Origin: Planococcus sp. MB-3u-03
Lineage (GTDB): Bacteria; Bacillota; Bacilli; Bacillales_A; Planococcaceae
Assembly: GCF_002833405.1 (NCBI RefSeq)
Contig: NZ_CP025135.1
Location: 539,501-603,500 of the forward strand
DNA: 64,000 bases
Direction: 5' to 3'
Position numbers and translations under genes: made by a program. Position 1 is the first letter of the stretch. The number at the start of each line of letters is the position of its first letter. The notes beneath the pieces are model-generated. The model made no database searches. It was not told the DNA's origin and worked only from the letters and a program-made list of their open reading frames with translations. Positions 51,371-58,802 of the stretch are shown in pieces.

Positions 51371-52357
51371 ATGAAATCGACTGTCAATGCCAAGGATGTC
51401 GCAAAGCTCGCAGGGGTCTCGCAGTCTTCTGTGTCCAGAGTGTTTTTCGACGGAGCGAAAGTTACAGAAAAAACGCGCCAAAAAGTGTTGGCTGCAGCCG
51501 AAGAACTTGGCTACCGGCCGAATGAATACGCCAGAAGCCTGATCACCAACAGTTCGAAAATCATCGGGCTTGTCATGAAAGGCGTCCAAAATCCCTTTTA
51601 TCCACAAGTCCTTAAGCAATTTACGACTTCATTCAAAAAGCAGGGATACAGCGTCTTATTCGTCCATACAAATAATGACGAAATTCAAAGCGAAGACATC
51701 GAGACTTTGCTCAATTACAATGTGGCAGGTGTCATCATCACCGATGCGTCGATGTCGATGAACGTCGCAGAAGCATTTCAAGCAAACCATATCCCGCTGG
51801 TCTTTTTCAATCGTAAACTGACGAGCAGCCATTTCCATTCGGTGTGCTGCAATAATTTGAACGCCAGCCGGCAAATCGCAGAGTACCTGGCAGAAAACGG
51901 AACGGGGCCGATGGTGTATATTTCCGGGAACGAAGACACCTCGACGAGCCGAGAGCGCGAACAGGGATTTGCGGAAGTGCTGGGGAAGAAAGGCATCGAA
52001 TACAAAAAATACAATTCGGATTTTACGTATAATGGAGGTTACGAAACTGCGCAGAAAATCCTGTCGGAAGGAAAAGTCCCGTCTGCCGTTTTTGCGGCGA
52101 ACGATATTATGGCACTCGGCGTCGTGGATGCTTTCCGCAAGCAGGGCGTCAAGATTCCGGAACAGGTGAAAGTGATCGGGTTTGACAATATTGAAATGGC
52201 TTCTTGGCCGGCGTACGAACTGACGACGTGGGAGCAGCCGATCGAAAAGATGGTCGATGAAACGGTAAATTATTTGCTGGGGGAAATCGGCGAATACACA
52301 GGCCAGGCGCGGGCTGTCGAAGTAGAAGGAAGCTTTGTGGAAAGGAAAACCACTTAA
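51371..52357 (+). CDS. LacI-family transcriptional regulator
   Basis: A 328-residue LacI/GalR regulator. The N-terminal DNA-binding domain is VNAKDVAKLAGVSQSSVSRVFFDGAKVTEKTRQKVLAAAEELGYRPNEYARSL (about 4-58), followed by a periplasmic-binding-protein-like sensor domain (IIGLVMKGVQNPFYPQVLKQF to VIGFDNIEMASWPAYELTTWEQP). It should repress the operon starting at 52487 through the operators at 52411-52461 until an inducer, probably the pathway substrate, binds. AAAAGGATG precedes the ATG. Confidence 0.9.
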   Translation: MKSTVNAKDVAKLAGVSQSSVSRVFFDGAKVTEKTRQKVLAAAEELGYRPNEYARSLITNSSKIIGLVMKGVQNPFYPQVLKQFTTSFKKQGYSVLFVHTNNDEIQSEDIETLLNYNVAGVIITDASMSMNVAEAFQANHIPLVFFNRKLTSSHFHSVCCNNLNASRQIAEYLAENGTGPMVYISGNEDTSTSREREQGFAEVLGKKGIEYKKYNSDFTYNGGYETAQKILSEGKVPSAVFAANDIMALGVVDAFRKQGVKIPEQVKVIGFDNIEMASWPAYELTTWEQPIEKMVDETVNYLLGEIGEYTGQARAVEVEGSFVERKTT

Positions 52358-52410
52358 TCAGTGGTTGACTTTCTGAAATAATTAAAATATTCTTGTTCTT
52401 AACAACATAT

Positions 52411-52461
52411 TTGCATACGTATTCAAGAAAGCGCTTTATTCTATTTTGAATACGTATGCAA
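52411..52461 (+). promoter_or_regulatory. Paired LacI-type operators
   Basis: TTGCATACGTATTCAA (52411-52426) and TTGAATACGTATGCAA (52446-52461) are exact reverse complements, each itself a near-palindrome with a TACGTA centre. Centre spacing is 35 bases. They sit between the LacI gene and the operon start, so LacI tetramers or paired dimers could repress strongly. Confidence 0.85.
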
Positions 52462-52486
52462 GAAAAAGAAGATGGAGGTTTTCATA

Positions 52487-53767
52487 ATGGTCAAAGTATT
52501 GAAAGCAGGTAAATCAGCAGAAGAAGTGAGCGCAAACGATTCGAAAGTTTCACAGATCGTTGCAGAGGCTTTAAAAGATGTGGAAACGCGCGGGGATGCG
52601 GCGGTTCGTGAACTGTCCGAGAAATTTGATAAATGGGCGCCTGAATCGTTCCGTTTGTCTGATGCGGAAATCAATGAAATCGTTTCCAAAGTTCCGGGCA
52701 GCGTCATCGAAGACATTAAATTCGCACAGAAGAACATCAAAGCGTTCGCGGAAGCACAGTTGGATTCCTTGAATGATATCGAAGTGGAACAGATTCCCGG
52801 CGTTATTTTGGGGCATAAAAATATCCCGGTCAACAGCGTCGGCTGCTACATCCCCGGAGGCCGCTACCCGATGGTCGCTTCCGCCCATATGAGCGTCTTG
52901 ACCGCAAAAGTCGCTGGCGTCAAACGCGTCATCGCGTGCACCCCGCCGATCAATGGGGAAATTCCATATGCAACGATTGCGGCAATGTCCCTTGCTGGAG
53001 CGGATGAAATTTACCTGCTTGGTGGCATTCAGGCAATGGGTGCGATGGCGATCGGCACTGAAACGATTGAGGCGGTCGATATGATCGTCGGGCCGGGCAA
53101 TGCCTTCGTCGCAGAAGCGAAGCGCCAACTTTACGGCCGCGTCGGCATCGACTTGTTCGCAGGGCCGACGGAAACTTTAGTCGTTGCCGATCACACGGCA
53201 GATGCGGAAATGGTCGCAACGGACATTCTCGGACAAGGCGAACACGGGCCGACTTCACCAGGCGCATTGATCACGACTTCCGAAGAACTAGCGAATGAAA
53301 CCGTCAAAGAAATCGAACGTCAATTGGAGACCTTGCCGACAGCGGACGTCGCTCGCGTGTCATGGGAAGATTACGGACAGATTTTGCTCGTTGATTCGAT
53401 TGAAGAAGCGCGCATCGAAGCAGACCGTCTGGCATTTGAGCACGTCGAGATCCTGACGGAAGATCCGGACTACTTCCTAGAGCACATGACCAATTACGGC
53501 TGCTTGTTCCTCGGACCGGAAACGAATGTGGCATACGGCGACAAAGTCATCGGCACGAACCATACCTTGCCGACAAAAGGCGCCGCTCGCTATACCGGCG
53601 GATTGTGGGTCGGGAAGTTCATCAAGACCGTCACCTACCAGAAAGTGACGACACCGGAAGCGAGCGCCTATATTGGGGAATATGCCGCGCGCTTATGCCA
53701 ACTTGAGAATTTCGCAGGGCATGCCGAGCAGGCACTCCTCCGCGTCAGAAGATACGGCAAAAATTAA
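52487..53767 (+). CDS. HisD-family dehydrogenase, closest to sulfopropanediol dehydrogenase HpsN
   Basis: A 426-residue NAD-dependent four-electron alcohol dehydrogenase of the histidinol dehydrogenase family. By motif comparison the zinc ligands are Gln250, His253 (GQGEHG), Asp352 ([16 protein letters not shown]) and His412, and the catalytic pair is Glu318-His319 (LAFEHVEIL). The block [33 protein letters not shown] and [17 protein letters not shown] are features I associate with HpsN rather than true HisD. HpsN oxidises (R)-2,3-dihydroxypropane-1-sulfonate to sulfolactate. No his genes adjoin; the LacI-operon context points to catabolism. The ATG at 52487 follows GGAGG. Confidence 0.82.
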
Positions 53768-53798
53768 TTTCATTTAGGTGGTAGGGGAGGAAATGTAA

Positions 53799-55115
53799 AT
53801 GCTCGGTTTAATAGGCATGTTTGGTGGATTAATTTTACTCATTGTCCTGACGATGCGCGGCATGAACTTGCTGATTGCAGCGCCACTGACGGCATTGTTC
53901 GTGGCAGTATTGAACGGATTGCCTTTATTCCCGCAGCTCGCGGGAGAAGGGGCGGCCAATTATTTGACGAATTACATGGATGGCTTCACCGGCTTTATCG
54001 CGTCCTGGTATTTGATGTTCCTGACAGGGGCGATTTTCGGGAAAGTGATGGAAGACACGGGCGCTGCCGATAGCGTATCGCGTTGGATTGTTGGCAAGAT
54101 GGGGATGAAACGCGCTGCACTTGCGGTTGTTCTCGCCTGTGCTGTCCTTACATACGGCGGCGTCAGTTTGTTCGTCGTCGCATTCTCGGTATATCCGATG
54201 GCACTCAGTCTCTTTAAACAAGCGAATTTGCCACGACGCTTTATTCCAGCGGCACTCGCTTTTGGCTCGACGACATTCACGATGACGTCTGCCGGATCTC
54301 CGGAAATCCAAAACTGGATCCCGATTGAATTCCTCGGCACTTCTCCATACGCCGGCTGGGAAGTCAGTGCAATCGTCGCGGTCTTCATGATGGTCTTCGG
54401 TTATTGGTGGCTGACGAAAATGATCAATAAAGCGAAATCAAAAGGTGAAGAGTTCGAGTCGCGCCCGACCGACCCGAACAACGAATCACGCAAGGAGTTG
54501 CCGAATCCGCTCCTTAGCATGCTTCCGCTCCTGATTGTCCTTGGCTTCTCGTATATTTTCCATGATTCGCTCGGCACGTCTGCGTTGATCATCGCCTTGA
54601 CGGGCGGGATCATCTCGACTTGCCTGATCAACATCAAATTCATCCGCAACTTGAGCAAAGCGCTCGGCGACGGCGCGATGGGGGCAGTCATTGCGATCGC
54701 CAACACCGCAGCAGTCGTCGGTTTCGGGGGAGTCGTCAAAGCGACGCCATCTTTTGAAGCAGCTGTTGATGTCATGACCGGCATCCCGGGCAGCCCATTG
54801 ATCGGCGGGGCGCTAGCCGTTGCGGTCATCGCGGGTCTCACCGGATCGTCTTCCGGCGGCCAGGCGATTGCGCTTCCTTTGCTCGCGCCTCATTATCTCG
54901 ATATGGGCGTGGACCCGGAAGCTTTGCACCGGACCGTTTCGATTTCATCCGGTTCGCTGGATTCCTTGCCTCAAGGCGGCTATGTCGTCACGACGATCCG
55001 CTCGATCGCAGGGGAGACCCACCGCGACGCTTACCCGGCATTCGGCGCATTGTCCGTTGTCGTACCGCTGCTCGGTGCAGTACTCGCTGTGATTTTGTTC
55101 TCGATCGGTCTATAA
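53799..55115 (+). CDS. GntP-family permease
   Basis: A 438-residue membrane transporter with about 12-13 helices. Motifs include PLTALFVAVLNGLPLFP, ASWYLMFLTGAIFGKVMEDTGAADSVSRWIVGKMG, TYGGVSLFVVAFSVYPMALSLFKQA and GLTGSSSGGQAIALPLLAP near the end. GntP-type proteins import gluconate and similar hydroxy acids with protons. It should import the operon's substrate. AGGGGAGG precedes the ATG. A hairpin follows before the third structural gene, so distal genes may be expressed less. Confidence 0.87.
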   Translation: MLGLIGMFGGLILLIVLTMRGMNLLIAAPLTALFVAVLNGLPLFPQLAGEGAANYLTNYMDGFTGFIASWYLMFLTGAIFGKVMEDTGAADSVSRWIVGKMGMKRAALAVVLACAVLTYGGVSLFVVAFSVYPMALSLFKQANLPRRFIPAALAFGSTTFTMTSAGSPEIQNWIPIEFLGTSPYAGWEVSAIVAVFMMVFGYWWLTKMINKAKSKGEEFESRPTDPNNESRKELPNPLLSMLPLLIVLGFSYIFHDSLGTSALIIALTGGIISTCLINIKFIRNLSKALGDGAMGAVIAIANTAAVVGFGGVVKATPSFEAAVDVMTGIPGSPLIGGALAVAVIAGLTGSSSGGQAIALPLLAPHYLDMGVDPEALHRTVSISSGSLDSLPQGGYVVTTIRSIAGETHRDAYPAFGALSVVVPLLGAVLAVILFSIGL

Positions 55116-55124
55116 GATTTACGT

Positions 55125-55161
55125 GCCCAACAGCTGTCCCAACCGGAAGCTGTTGGGTTTC
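55125..55161 (+). terminator. Intra-operon terminator-like hairpin
   Basis: CCCAACAGCT pairs with AGCTGTTGGG, followed by TTTCC. The weak T tract suggests partial termination or mRNA stabilisation. Confidence 0.6.
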
Positions 55162-55196
55162 CTTGTATCATCCATTCTAAAAAGAGGTGCATTCAT

Positions 55197-56135
55197 ATGG
55201 AGAAATTGACAATACTCGGTGCCGGAACGATGGGGCATTCGATCGCTCTGTCCGCCGCCTGGTCCGGTCAGACGCCGACTGTCTACGGCATCAACGAACA
55301 AGACGTGGCGAATGCGGACAAAGGCTTGGCGCAGAAACTGGCCGTCATGGCAGACAATGGCTTGTTTGATGAAAATGAAGCGCAGGAAATCCGCGAGAGA
55401 ATCCGTTTTACGACATCTCTCAAAGAAGCTGTACAGAATGCAACATTCATTCTGGAAGTCGTCCCTGAAAATCTGCAATTGAAACGGGACTTGTACAAGC
55501 AATTAGAAAGCTTAGTCGACCAATCAGTCATCATCGCAAGCAATACGTCCGGCTTCAAGCCTTCACTGCTGGCTGAAGAGATGGCGCATCCCGAACGCTT
55601 TATCGTCGCCCATTTCTGGAATCCAGGACATTTGATCCCACTTGTCGAAGTCGTCAACGGGGAACGGACCCAAGCGGAGACGACAGAACGCACGATGGCT
55701 TTATTGAAGTCGATGAATAAAAAGCCGATCTTGTTGAACAAGGAACTGCCGGGATTCATCGGCAACCGCCTGCAATACGCGCTGTTTCGTGAAGCGCAAG
55801 CGTTGCTCGATGCGGGTGCTGCCAGCAAGGAAGATATTGATGCAGCGGTTACATACAGCATCGGGCGGCGGCTTCCGGTGACGGGTCCGTTGATGACAGC
55901 GGACATGGGCGGTCTCGACGTATTCTCGGCCATTTCGAATTATTTATTCGAAGAATTATCGGACGATCAGCGCTCCGGAAAGATTTTGTCGGAGTTGGTC
56001 GAGCAGCAAAAGCTTGGCGATAAAACAGGTGAAGGCTTCTACAGTTGGAAGCCTGCTGTGTCCGAAGAGATCAACCGCAAACGCGAACGGACCTTGATCC
56101 AGTTTTTGAAAAACGATTTGGAACAGGAGGGCTAA
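55197..56135 (+). CDS. 3-hydroxyacyl-CoA-dehydrogenase-family NAD-dependent enzyme
   Basis: A 312-residue enzyme of the family that includes 3-hydroxyacyl-CoA, L-carnitine and L-gulonate 3-dehydrogenases. The NAD motif is LGAGTMGHSIAL (about 6-17), then LEVVPENLQLKRDLY, ASNTSGFKPSLLAEE and AHFWNPGHLIPLVEVVNG with the catalytic histidine. The C-terminal dimer domain begins at GFIGNRLQYALFREAQALLDAGAASKEDIDAA. The Trp-Asn after His-Phe and the absent acyl-CoA partners favour a hydroxy-acid or polyol substrate. It follows gntP by about 80 bases and precedes the SDR by one base. Confidence 0.82.
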   Translation: MEKLTILGAGTMGHSIALSAAWSGQTPTVYGINEQDVANADKGLAQKLAVMADNGLFDENEAQEIRERIRFTTSLKEAVQNATFILEVVPENLQLKRDLYKQLESLVDQSVIIASNTSGFKPSLLAEEMAHPERFIVAHFWNPGHLIPLVEVVNGERTQAETTERTMALLKSMNKKPILLNKELPGFIGNRLQYALFREAQALLDAGAASKEDIDAAVTYSIGRRLPVTGPLMTADMGGLDVFSAISNYLFEELSDDQRSGKILSELVEQQKLGDKTGEGFYSWKPAVSEEINRKRERTLIQFLKNDLEQEG

Positions 56136-56136
56136 A

Positions 56137-56901
56137 ATGAAGAGCTATTTCTCGGAACTGAAAGGGCAGACGGTCGTCGTCACTGGCGGCAGCAAAGGCC
56201 TCGGCAAAGACATTGCACTGACATTCGCGGAACTCGGCGCAAACGTCGCGATTTCCGGAAGAAACCAAGAAGCGCTTGATGCCACGCTCGAAGAACTGCG
56301 CGCCCATAACCCAAACTGCATCGCGGTTGCCGGAGATTTGAGCGATATTAGTGAAGTGAGAAAATTGATCGACACCGCTGCAACTGAGTTCGGCACAATC
56401 GATGTGCTCGTCAATAACGCCGGTGTCAATATTGCGAAGCCTGCGATGGAAGTAACGGAAGAAGATTGGGATACGGTGCTCGACTTGAACTTGAAATCCG
56501 CCTTTTTCGCGAGCCAGGCGGCAGCGAAATACATGCTTGCACAAAACAGCGGCCGCATCATCAACATTGCGTCGCAAATGGCCTTCGTCGGTTATATCAA
56601 GCGCGCCGCGTATTGCTCAAGCAAAGGCGGCATGGTGCAGATGACCAAAGCGCTTGCGGTTGAATGGGCACAGCACGGAATCCGCGTAAATGCTGTTGCC
56701 CCAACATTCGTCGAAACGGAATTTACCGAGAAGCAATTTGAGGACGCAGCGTTTAAAGAAGATGTCAATCGCCGAATCCTGCTCGACGGCCTGTCGCAAC
56801 CGAAAGACACATCCGGCGCGGTGTTGTATTTGGCATCGACCCTGTCGAATTTCGTAACCGGCGAGACGATCAAAGTTGACGGTGGCTGGACAGCGATTTA
56901 A
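56137..56901 (+). CDS. SDR-family oxidoreductase
   Basis: A 254-residue classical SDR resembling gluconate 5-dehydrogenase or 3-oxoacyl-ACP-reductase-like sugar dehydrogenases. TGGSKGLGKDIALTF binds the cofactor, NNAGVN is the NNAG motif, and the catalytic residues lie in INIASQMAFVGYIKRAAYCSSKGGMVQMTKALAVEW (Ser, Tyr, Lys). It ends TGETIKVDGGWTAI. It would oxidise or reduce a secondary hydroxyl of the operon substrate. GGAGGGCTAAA precedes the ATG, one base after the upstream stop. Confidence 0.87.
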   Translation: MKSYFSELKGQTVVVTGGSKGLGKDIALTFAELGANVAISGRNQEALDATLEELRAHNPNCIAVAGDLSDISEVRKLIDTAATEFGTIDVLVNNAGVNIAKPAMEVTEEDWDTVLDLNLKSAFFASQAAAKYMLAQNSGRIINIASQMAFVGYIKRAAYCSSKGGMVQMTKALAVEWAQHGIRVNAVAPTFVETEFTEKQFEDAAFKEDVNRRILLDGLSQPKDTSGAVLYLASTLSNFVTGETIKVDGGWTAI

Positions 56902-57530: not shown

Positions 57531-58802
57531 TTATGCTTCTTGTGGGTTCAAAACTTCTTCTGTTTCCAAGCCGTGCTTTTTCTCGGATTCAGCGACCATC
57601 AATGCGCAAGCCGCGTCACCGGAGATATTGATTGCTGTGCGGGACATATCGAGCAAGCGGTCGATTCCGAGTACGAGGCCGATGCCTTCTACCGGAAGCC
57701 CGACGCTGGATAAGACCATCGCGAGCATGATCAAGCCGACGCCTGGAACTCCGGCGGTCCCGATACTTGCAAGCACTGCCGTCAAGACGACCGTCAATAA
57801 TTGGCCGAGCGTCAAGTCGACCATGAAGGCTTGCGCGATGAACATCGTCGCGGCACCTTGCATGATCGCCGTGCCGTCCATATTGATTGTCGCGCCAAGC
57901 GGCTGGACAAATGAACTGATCGACTTCGGAATCTTCAAGTCACGCTGCGCCACTTCCATCGAAACCGGAAGTGTGCCCGTGCTGCTGGAAGTACTGAAAG
58001 CGACTGTCATAGCCGGCATAAAGGTTTTGAAAAACCAGATTGGGCTTTTCTTTGCCAGGAAATAAACAGTGCCGCCGTAGGTAAAGGCTGCGTGGATCAA
58101 CAAGGCGCCGATGACGACGAGCATGTAAGATCCCATGGCCTGGATGGCGGCGAGACCTTGCGAACCGATCGCTGTGGCGATCAGACCGAATGTGCCGTAC
58201 GGAGCAAAACGCATGACGATTCCGACGAGGTACATCATCACGTCATTGCCTTGCTCGACGAGACTCAAAATGCCTTTTGTCTTGTCGCCAAGTGCGGTAA
58301 GGGCAAGTCCGACAAAGACGGCGAAGACGATGATCTGCAGCATATTGCCTTCGGTCATGGCTTCAAGCGGATTTTTCGGAATGATGTTGAGGAGTGTGTC
58401 AGCGATCGATGGAGCATCTTCCGGGCTGTAAGTCGCCGCGTCGATATCGAAATCACCTGCTGCACCCGGCTGGACGATTGTTGCCAAGCCAAGACCAATC
58501 ACTATCGCGATGGTCGTCGTTACCAGGAAATACGAAATCGTCTTGATGCCGATGCGCCCGAGCTTCGCTGGATCGCCAAGCCCTGCGGTACCGAGGACGA
58601 TTGATAAGAACACAAGCGGTACGACGAGCATGCTGATGAGGGCAAGGAAAATCTGCCCGACCGGCACGAAGACGTAAGGATTGAGTATTGCGAAAACTTC
58701 CGGCGCAAAAAGATTTAGAAGCAGTCCTGTGATCGCACCTAAGATCAAAGCACTGATGACTTTAAATGTTAAGCCTCTCTTTTTCTTCAATTCATCCACC
58801 AA
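57531..58802 (-). CDS. Dicarboxylate/amino acid:cation symporter (DAACS family)
   Basis: A 423-residue glutamate/aspartate-type symporter. Family motifs are visible: AFSTSSSTGTLPVSM (serine-rich reentrant loop HP1, about residues 268-282), PLGATINMDGTAI (NMDGT substrate/sodium motif, about 301-313), and GTAGVPGVGLIMLAMVL (HP2). Eight membrane helices fit the family. It imports glutamate, aspartate or C4-dicarboxylates with sodium or protons. Transcribed alone from the minus strand. Confidence 0.92.
   Translation of the reverse strand: MVDELKKKRGLTFKVISALILGAITGLLLNLFAPEVFAILNPYVFVPVGQIFLALISMLVVPLVFLSIVLGTAGLGDPAKLGRIGIKTISYFLVTTTIAIVIGLGLATIVQPGAAGDFDIDAATYSPEDAPSIADTLLNIIPKNPLEAMTEGNMLQIIVFAVFVGLALTALGDKTKGILSLVEQGNDVMMYLVGIVMRFAPYGTFGLIATAIGSQGLAAIQAMGSYMLVVIGALLIHAAFTYGGTVYFLAKKSPIWFFKTFMPAMTVAFSTSSSTGTLPVSMEVAQRDLKIPKSISSFVQPLGATINMDGTAIMQGAATMFIAQAFMVDLTLGQLLTVVLTAVLASIGTAGVPGVGLIMLAMVLSSVGLPVEGIGLVLGIDRLLDMSRTAINISGDAACALMVAESEKKHGLETEEVLNPQEA

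Follow-up and report, generated by a model that had tools for sequence, protein, structure and literature searches.

An operon in Planococcus sp. MB-3u-03 encodes a dehydrogenase of the histidinol dehydrogenase (HisD) family that is neither HisD nor HpsN, the HisD-family enzyme of 2,3-dihydroxypropane-1-sulfonate (DHPS; sulfopropanediol) degradation, but a member of a third, well-supported branch of the family. The operon lies at positions 51371-56901, + strand, of a 64,000-nucleotide stretch of contig NZ_CP025135.1 (positions 539,501 to 603,500), which we refer to as the window. An earlier description made from the letters alone (the sequence-only reading) had listed a regulator, paired operators, a HisD homologue, a permease, a 3-hydroxyacyl-CoA-dehydrogenase-like (3HCDH) enzyme and a short-chain dehydrogenase/reductase (SDR), and we located all of them there. 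On balance, we favor the view that the operon specifies an inducible pathway for the uptake and oxidation of a small, sulfur-free hydroxy-carboxylic acid. The layout of such an operon is known; the branch, the operator, and the probable sulfur-free substrate look new.

The dehydrogenase belongs to a third branch of the HisD family

The dehydrogenase (426 amino acids; 52487-53767, + strand) resembled both known types of enzyme in profile and structure searches. Its gene most likely starts at 52487, behind a ribosome-binding site GGAGGT (52474-52479, + strand) and matching the 426 amino acids of many database orthologues; the list of open reading frames has the start at 52472. In a Pfam search of the window proteins, it matched the histidinol dehydrogenase family (PF00815) with 461.7 bits, and it passed the NCBI hisD model TIGR00069 (455.9 bits, cut-off 243.8). 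The best match in the PDB was CpHpsN (391 bits). Elsewhere in the window genome is another HisD-family gene, 36% identical to this one.

We compared 160 distinct proteins from the fetched loci, together with the window protein and CpHpsN, and scored the zinc-contacting, sulfolactate-contacting and catalytic positions. Residue numbering and roles are those of CpHpsN in the accessible part of PMC11382572: the zinc ligands are Gln248, His251, Asp352, and His411, the catalytic residues are Glu318 and His319, His126 binds the sulfonate of the substrate, and Lys353 contacts it in CpHpsN. We defined the third branch as proteins at least 58% identical to the window protein, which gave 135 rows; Bacilli contribute 45, a count that includes both the window protein and the copy from its own genome. 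All 135 rows retained Lys353, Gln248, His251, Glu318, His319, Asp352, and His411, and all had a hydrophobic residue at position 126 (Met in 89 and Leu in 46) in place of the His126 of HpsN. The window protein has GRYPM where HpsN has GRY[A/S]H, and the branch motif is G[RK][YF]P[ML], with a single row having GAYPL. Six HisD rows have Tyr where the third branch has Lys353. Thr in place of Ser at position 226 proved unsuitable as a further marker of the branch, since Thr also occurs in 7 of the 12 His126 rows.

The three types of enzyme formed separate clades. Our tree comprised 83 rows: the window protein, 55 chosen at random from the other 134 branch rows, and all 27 others. The third branch was a single clade (support 100/99), as were the 12 rows with His126, including CpHpsN (100/100), and the six HisD rows (100/100). 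The 12 rows had been named HpsN by their His126, so that residue is no independent evidence for them. A seventh HisD-labeled row (L063, on a long branch) and eight HisD-like rows were placed elsewhere, and a sister relationship between the third branch and HpsN was weakly supported (81/25). Because it falls in a separate clade and lacks His126, we conclude that the window dehydrogenase belongs to neither HisD nor HpsN. The sequence-only reading had called it an HpsN-like HisD homologue and had proposed a tree to separate it from true HisD; it does lie outside the HisD clade, but it lies outside the CpHpsN clade too. It shares with HisD the Pfam family, the catalytic Glu/His pair, and the zinc ligands, and differs from it in clade, in substrate-site residues, and in being part of a catabolic-type operon.

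The third branch is apparently an undescribed yet common part of a known enzyme family. The best-ranked results of our literature searches contained no publication on the branch or on the operator described below, and a term search of the accessible part of PMC4052901 found neither.

Two other sets of HisD-like genes were seen. A further group with GRYPL and Lys353 (in L023, L024, and L064; also L033, L034, and L067) adjoins a PAS-type regulator and a polar-amino-acid-type ABC transporter, as judged by eye. HisD-like genes were also present in 11 records named as phage (Listeria phage, Bacteriophage sp.), with 37-38% identity in the best 5 of the 11; these are possibly host DNA within the records.

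A LacI-type operator precedes the dehydrogenase in Bacilli and in part of the Proteobacteria

Two operators, O1 (TTGCATACGTATTCAA, 52411-52426, + strand) and O2 (TTGAATACGTATGCAA, 52446-52461, + strand), lie upstream of the dehydrogenase with their centers 35 bp apart. Both were recognized as sites conserved in Bacilli loci and genomes. The pattern ATACGTAT was present no more than 170 bp upstream of the dehydrogenase in 40 of 42 Bacilli loci, 22 of them from the genus. It was absent before the gene in L057 and L061; L084, a longer locus of L057, has a site with one mismatch. In genome-wide searches, TGMATACGTATKCA was found in 23 of 25 whole Bacilli genomes, solely before the dehydrogenase, with all 33 places within about 160 bp upstream of the gene. 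The same pattern read backwards matched in 1 of the 25 genomes. Based on these frequencies and the reversed control, we conclude that the operators are not due to chance.

The operator extends beyond Bacilli and its presence tracks that of the regulator. Among 90 loci from plasmids and species genomes, 23 had a site (up to 4 mismatches, within 250 bp), compared to 1 of 90 shuffled controls. Perfect sites outside Bacilli were in L102, L104, L110, L111, and L152. A site was present in 22 of the 42 loci with a LacI relative and in 1 of the 48 without (Fisher p = 1.6e-8, a value that ignores kinship among the loci). The 20 LacI-bearing loci with no site must use another site or another regulator, and the operator is therefore not universal.

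In 20 proteobacterial genomes or records that were picked for having the site or LacI, TTGCATNCGNATGCAA was found in 17, at 23 places, 16 of them before the dehydrogenase. As judged by eye, the other places were before sugar ABC genes (Roseomonas L097 and L249; Falsiroseomonas L174), before a second LacI gene followed by an ABC-type gene (L264), between cupin-like and alpha/beta-hydrolase-like genes (L256), and near LacI and LysR genes (L251). We searched the exact sites in Bacilli and the 23 proteobacterial places for more pathway genes, and these regulons indicated no single substrate.

The regulator, operator, and dehydrogenase are the constant core of a widespread locus

The third branch is present in Bacilli, Proteobacteria, and Bacteroidota, and so in at least three phyla. 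Within the genus, the gene was found in 22 of 36 genomes (88-100% identity), each of which also has a second HisD-family match (35-40%). In the class Bacilli, it was present at 71% identity or more in 26 of 398 sampled genomes, as counted among 32 genomes with matches at E values up to 1e-95. Outside Bacilli, relatives with 65-71% identity were on plasmids of Rhizobium, Mesorhizobium, Advenella, Delftia, Roseomonas, Tritonibacter, Hymenobacter, and Emticicia. From species genomes, at least 586 relatives were recovered, and we kept the best 80 of these.

The genes for the permease, 3HCDH, and SDR varied between loci. We opened 30 Bacilli loci of the third branch, 10 within the genus and 20 outside it. 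The full five-gene set was present in 12 of the 30, including 8 of the 10 within the genus. At 54% identity or more, the permease was found in 15, the 3HCDH in 16, and the SDR in 21, and a LacI relative (33-78% identical) was found in 29. The most constant core is the LacI-family regulator, the operator TTGCATACGTATKCAA, and the dehydrogenase. The sequence-only reading had proposed conserved co-occurrence of the five genes as a check; the set proved to be conserved in the genus, though it does not form a fixed unit. Of the two outcomes which that reading had named as refuting it, neither occurred as stated.

Some loci are minimal: those of two Bacilli genomes (L070 and L071), of Pararobbsia (L145), and of Pseudomonas (L152) contain LacI, dehydrogenase, and permease but neither 3HCDH nor SDR. 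The L145 and L152 permeases are 32-36% identical to that of the window. We searched these four genomes for the 3HCDH and found relatives with at most 32-41% identity, similar to the 31-32% between the window 3HCDH and family paralogues in its own genome, indicating that the minimal-locus genomes have no close 3HCDH orthologue elsewhere.

Other loci combine the dehydrogenase with different genes. In L080, L086, and the more distant L083, it is accompanied by MFS, SDR, 3HCDH, aldehyde dehydrogenase, and Fe-type alcohol dehydrogenase genes. A lactonase-like gene is beside it in L078, L081, L084, L096, L116, and L118, and tetronate-type genes are near it in L079 and L116. The Mesorhizobium locus (L116:1-19269) contains sugar ABC genes, the dehydrogenase, LacI, a lactonase-like gene with a metallo-beta-lactamase fold, a lambda-crystallin-type 3HCDH, an SDR, PdxA, and an acid-sugar kinase (PF07005/PF17042), the last five on the strand of the dehydrogenase; this cluster looks like a C4 acid pathway. 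Around it, Hymenobacter has aromatic-ring cleavage genes and a glycosidase, and Emticicia has related genes for oxygenase, hydrolase, and glycosidase (L093 and L094). In L131, L143, L155, L162, and similar proteobacterial loci, the dehydrogenase was seen by eye with SDR, SnoaL-like, cupin, alpha/beta hydrolase, MetE-like, and HpcH/RraA aldolase genes, a set that would represent an as yet unassigned catabolic pathway.

The operon appears to have moved as a unit. In 12 of the 22 genus genomes with the dehydrogenase, the operon adjoins a malic enzyme gene, lying between it and a small conserved gene (L038-L042 compared to L188-L195). The malic enzyme itself is present in 37 of 40 genus genomes. 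In eight of eight loci with no operon at this site (seven genomes that lack the dehydrogenase gene and the window genome), the malic enzyme is 0.2-1.7 kb from its usual upstream neighbor. In the lineage of the window the operon is at another place, and the difference in site between lineages points to movement of the operon as a unit. We considered malic enzyme as a downstream step of the pathway and rejected it because the operon was inserted between two standing neighbors.

The other genes and features of the operon

The regulator gene (51371-52357, + strand) encodes a LacI-family protein of 328 amino acids with PF00356 and Peripla_BP domains. A promoter-like sequence TTGACT-N17-TATTCT upstream of the dehydrogenase (52365-52393, + strand) is weak taken alone, as the region had 5 such sites with 4.9 expected from shuffles; similar hexamers were at the equivalent position in most of the genus loci compared. 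Between O1 and O2 is a possible cre-like site with the core AAAGCGCTTT (52426-52439, + strand), a weak call that is found in some close relatives only.

The permease (53799-55115, + strand; 438 amino acids) is of the CitMHS/GntP type. It matched PF03600 (CitMHS; 47.5 bits) and PF02447 (GntP; 28.9 bits), both above their own cut-offs, and was far below that of the GntP gluconate permease model TIGR00791 (28.7 bits, cut-off 292.75). Between the permease and the 3HCDH gene is a terminator-like hairpin (55125-55158, + strand; -22.9 kcal/mol, z -4.3) that was equaled by 1 of 200 shuffles. All 10 relatives in which the gap between these genes is short had a hairpin at the equivalent position, most with the stem CCCA..TGGG (the stem of L074 differs); two further loci have a gap of about 0.8 kb. 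The hairpin parts the permease gene from the last two genes and may allow different expression of the two halves.

The 3HCDH gene (55197-56135, + strand) encodes a protein of 312 amino acids with PF02737 and PF00725 domains and the motif NPGHLIPLVE, and the SDR gene (56137-56901, + strand) a protein of 254 amino acids, assigned by profiles. Immediately 3' of the operon, on the - strand, is a gene for a sodium:dicarboxylate symporter (57531-58802; PF00375, 437.6 bits).

A proposed pathway for a sulfur-free hydroxy acid

In the pathway that we favor, LacI would bind O1 and O2, immediately 3' of the promoter of the dehydrogenase, and block expression until the compound is present, and the CitMHS/GntP-type permease would import the compound as an anion. 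The HisD-family enzyme, with zinc and two NAD+, would then convert a terminal -CH(OH)-CH2OH to -CH(OH)-COOH in a four-electron oxidation, the same type of conversion as that by HpsN and, with an amino alcohol, by HisD. The 3HCDH-like enzyme and the SDR would oxidize and re-reduce the beta-hydroxyl group, thereby inverting an enantiomer that the HisD-family enzyme cannot use.

The residues of the active site suggest the kind of substrate. The site of these enzymes is described as shaped for X-CH2-CH(OH or NH2)-CH2OH, with X on the zinc being imidazole in HisD and sulfonate in HpsN (PMC11382572). The retained Lys353 together with a hydrophobic residue at 126 suggests that the third branch binds another anion, for example a carboxylate, and the permease type would fit an organic anion. 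Like FHMPC dehydrogenase and lambda-crystallin, the 3HCDH carries NP..IPLVE rather than the NPAPVMKLVE of CoA-type enzymes, and so has the pattern NP..IP[LM][VI]E by which we recognized 3-hydroxyacid dehydrogenases acting on free acids. FHMPC dehydrogenase and lambda-crystallin, an L-gulonate 3-dehydrogenase that tolerates a 2-hydroxyl, share both the 3HCDH family and this pattern with it; the window protein differs in being under the cut-off of every NCBIfam model it matched (the best was FHMPC_DH, with 247.1 compared to 500 bits). A gene for 3-hydroxybutyrate dehydrogenase (above the TIGR01963 cut-off) directly follows the SDR in Planococcus loci L035, L036, L040, and L041 and is one open reading frame further on in L074, in total 5 of the 30 Bacilli loci, the window not included. 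Together with the 3-oxo-tetronate kinase near the dehydrogenase in L079 and the cluster of L116, this gives a C4 beta-hydroxy-acid setting. Also in favor of the proposal are the minimal loci, which do without 3HCDH and SDR, and the co-presence of HpsN in some genomes with the third-branch gene (counted below).

Our single best guess at the substrate, a tentative one, is 3,4-dihydroxybutyrate, oxidized to L-malate. It is the smallest molecule that would combine the two features demanded of the substrate, a beta-hydroxy acid and a vicinal primary alcohol, and it is the carboxylate analogue of DHPS. By Cahn-Ingold-Prelog reasoning, (S)-3,4-dihydroxybutyrate, placed like L-histidinol and R-DHPS, would give (S)-malate (L-malate) directly, and the 3HCDH would take the opposite enantiomer; carnitine dehydrogenase, which acts on L-carnitine, is a precedent for such a choice by a 3HCDH. 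It is possible, though far from assured, that the third-branch enzyme by itself oxidizes 3,4-dihydroxybutyrate (deoxytetronate) to L-malate, with near-identical LacI operators from Planococcus to part of the Proteobacteria, and that the 3HCDH and SDR of Bacilli add the use of the other enantiomer. A BKACE-type gene in Paracoccus L149 was not counted in connection with 3,4-dihydroxybutyrate because its match is to a 3,5-dioxohexanoate enzyme.

Several points weigh against this proposal. The free-acid chemistry of the 3HCDH is suggested by one motif, and the stereochemistry of the SDR cannot be read from sequence. The neighbors of the dehydrogenase are diverse, with aromatic-ring genes in Hymenobacter, sugar ABC transporters in Roseomonas, and HpcH/RraA aldolases in others, and a different acid, or an intermediate common to several pathways, would also fit. 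The adjacency of malic enzyme gives no backing for malate as the product. Our literature search, which covered listings of publications, returned none on the catabolism of 3,4-dihydroxybutyrate by such an enzyme, leaving this substrate with no independent support.

Alternative substrates

Tetronates are the nearest rival to 3,4-dihydroxybutyrate. The enzyme might act on a tetronate (threonate or erythronate), yielding tartrate, or on a tetritol or tetrose, yielding a tetronate that is degraded by other genes; we regard this as possible but doubtful. L079 has, beside the dehydrogenase, a 3-oxo-tetronate kinase over its cut-off, with a class II aldolase and a 3-hydroxyisobutyrate-dehydrogenase-like gene. 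The PdxA and acid-sugar kinase of L116 have relatives in L118 and, further off and on the other strand, in L089; sugar ABC genes, of the CUT2 type by eye, are in L096, L116, and L118; and the 3HCDH of L116 resembles lambda-crystallin. However, the Planococcus operon has neither kinase nor aldolase, and relatives of the two kinases were found in 4 of 120 third-branch loci (the 90 plasmid and species-genome loci and the 30 Bacilli loci). Class I fumarase/tartrate dehydratase (PF05681) was present in 9 of 12 genomes searched but absent from the window genome, G030, and G177, which closes the PF05681 route from tartrate in the window genome.

Oxidation of a 2-keto-3-deoxy-pentonate at C5 to 4-hydroxy-2-oxoglutarate, followed by cleavage by RraA, HpcH, or KDPG aldolases, is improbable. 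A keto group could, we reason, replace the sulfonate on the zinc. Sugar-acid dehydratase and RraA-like genes adjoin the dehydrogenase in Advenella L095 and Pseudorhodoferax L103, and a single RraA query and a single HpcH query each had relatives in 11 of the 120 loci. The Planococcus operon, however, has no dehydratase or aldolase; the minimal loci import their substrate, and such keto acids are unusual as nutrients; and the known route uses SDR and FAH proteins, the word histidinol being absent from the accessible part of PMC6336799.

The sequence-only reading had proposed a DHPS pathway, with sulfolactate excreted or cleaved elsewhere, and had noted a parallel in layout, which our comparison bears out. 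In the plasmid cluster of Cupriavidus pinatubonensis, the order is LacI, hpsN, hpsO, an MFS transporter, a further dehydrogenase in the place of hpsP, and two UxaA-family genes in the place of suyAB (the names hpsU, hpsP, and suyAB are those in PMC11382572). Both clusters combine LacI, a four-electron dehydrogenase of the HisD family, an SDR, a transporter, and a further dehydrogenase. In contrast to hps, the window operon has a dehydrogenase of another clade that lacks His126, a CitMHS/GntP-type permease rather than an MFS transporter, a 3HCDH where hps has HpsP, a LacI protein 24% identical to HpsR, and no sulfo-lyase. BLASTP found no relative of HpsP among the five window proteins. HpsO is an SDR (PDB 8wwf; PMC11131964) and the window SDR is 38% identical to it, so the two extra dehydrogenases do not both come from families unrelated to those of hps, as had been supposed; only the 3HCDH does. 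The same reading had the two other dehydrogenases of the Cupriavidus pathway interconverting enantiomers. The accessible part of PMC11131964 instead reports that HpsO and HpsP oxidize the C3 hydroxyl of R- and S-DHPS, and that of PMC11382572 still gives interconversion as proposed, so this model is disputed for hps itself.

Genes for cleavage of a sulfonate were rare or absent. As had been noted, the operon has no desulfonation gene. We found no SuyA, CuyA, or TauE in the 120 loci, one SuyB match (30%), and two matches to the sulfate-exporter family (30-33%). Of four HpsN loci, our own choice from the best 30 of 190 records, two had SuyAB and two had CuyA. The window genome has no SuyB-family (PF04295) protein, no Xsc over the cut-off (best 312 compared to 676 bits, with a model that also matches below its cut-off in 14 of 14 control genomes), and a best CuyA match of 24 bits (23% identity). 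Sulfo-lyases are often not beside hpsN (PMC11382572), so neighborhood alone would not exclude DHPS. HpsN is also present in 7 of 25 proteobacterial genomes chosen for having the third-branch gene. Despite the hps-like layout, the retained Lys353, and CpHpsN as the best PDB match, DHPS appears an unlikely substrate, because of Met or Leu at position 126 and because few or no sulfo-lyase genes are present in the 120 loci and the window genome; we give the DHPS pathway little credence.

That the protein is a second histidinol dehydrogenase, or salvages histidinol-like amino alcohols, is very improbable: it passes TIGR00069 but lies outside the clade of HisD rows, has Lys where those have Tyr, is accompanied in its genome by another HisD-family gene, and has an organic-anion permease as operon partner.

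Significance

Proteins of the third branch are named histidinol dehydrogenase or sulfopropanediol 3-dehydrogenase in databases, and the latter name can find its way into statements on sulfonate cycling. The branches can be separated simply, by scoring the key residues and by the tree. The presence of the operator in Bacilli and Proteobacteria makes the LacI regulator a possible biosensor for the substrate compound. Should the substrate be found, the third branch would reveal how bacteria of several phyla process a small organic acid by a common route.

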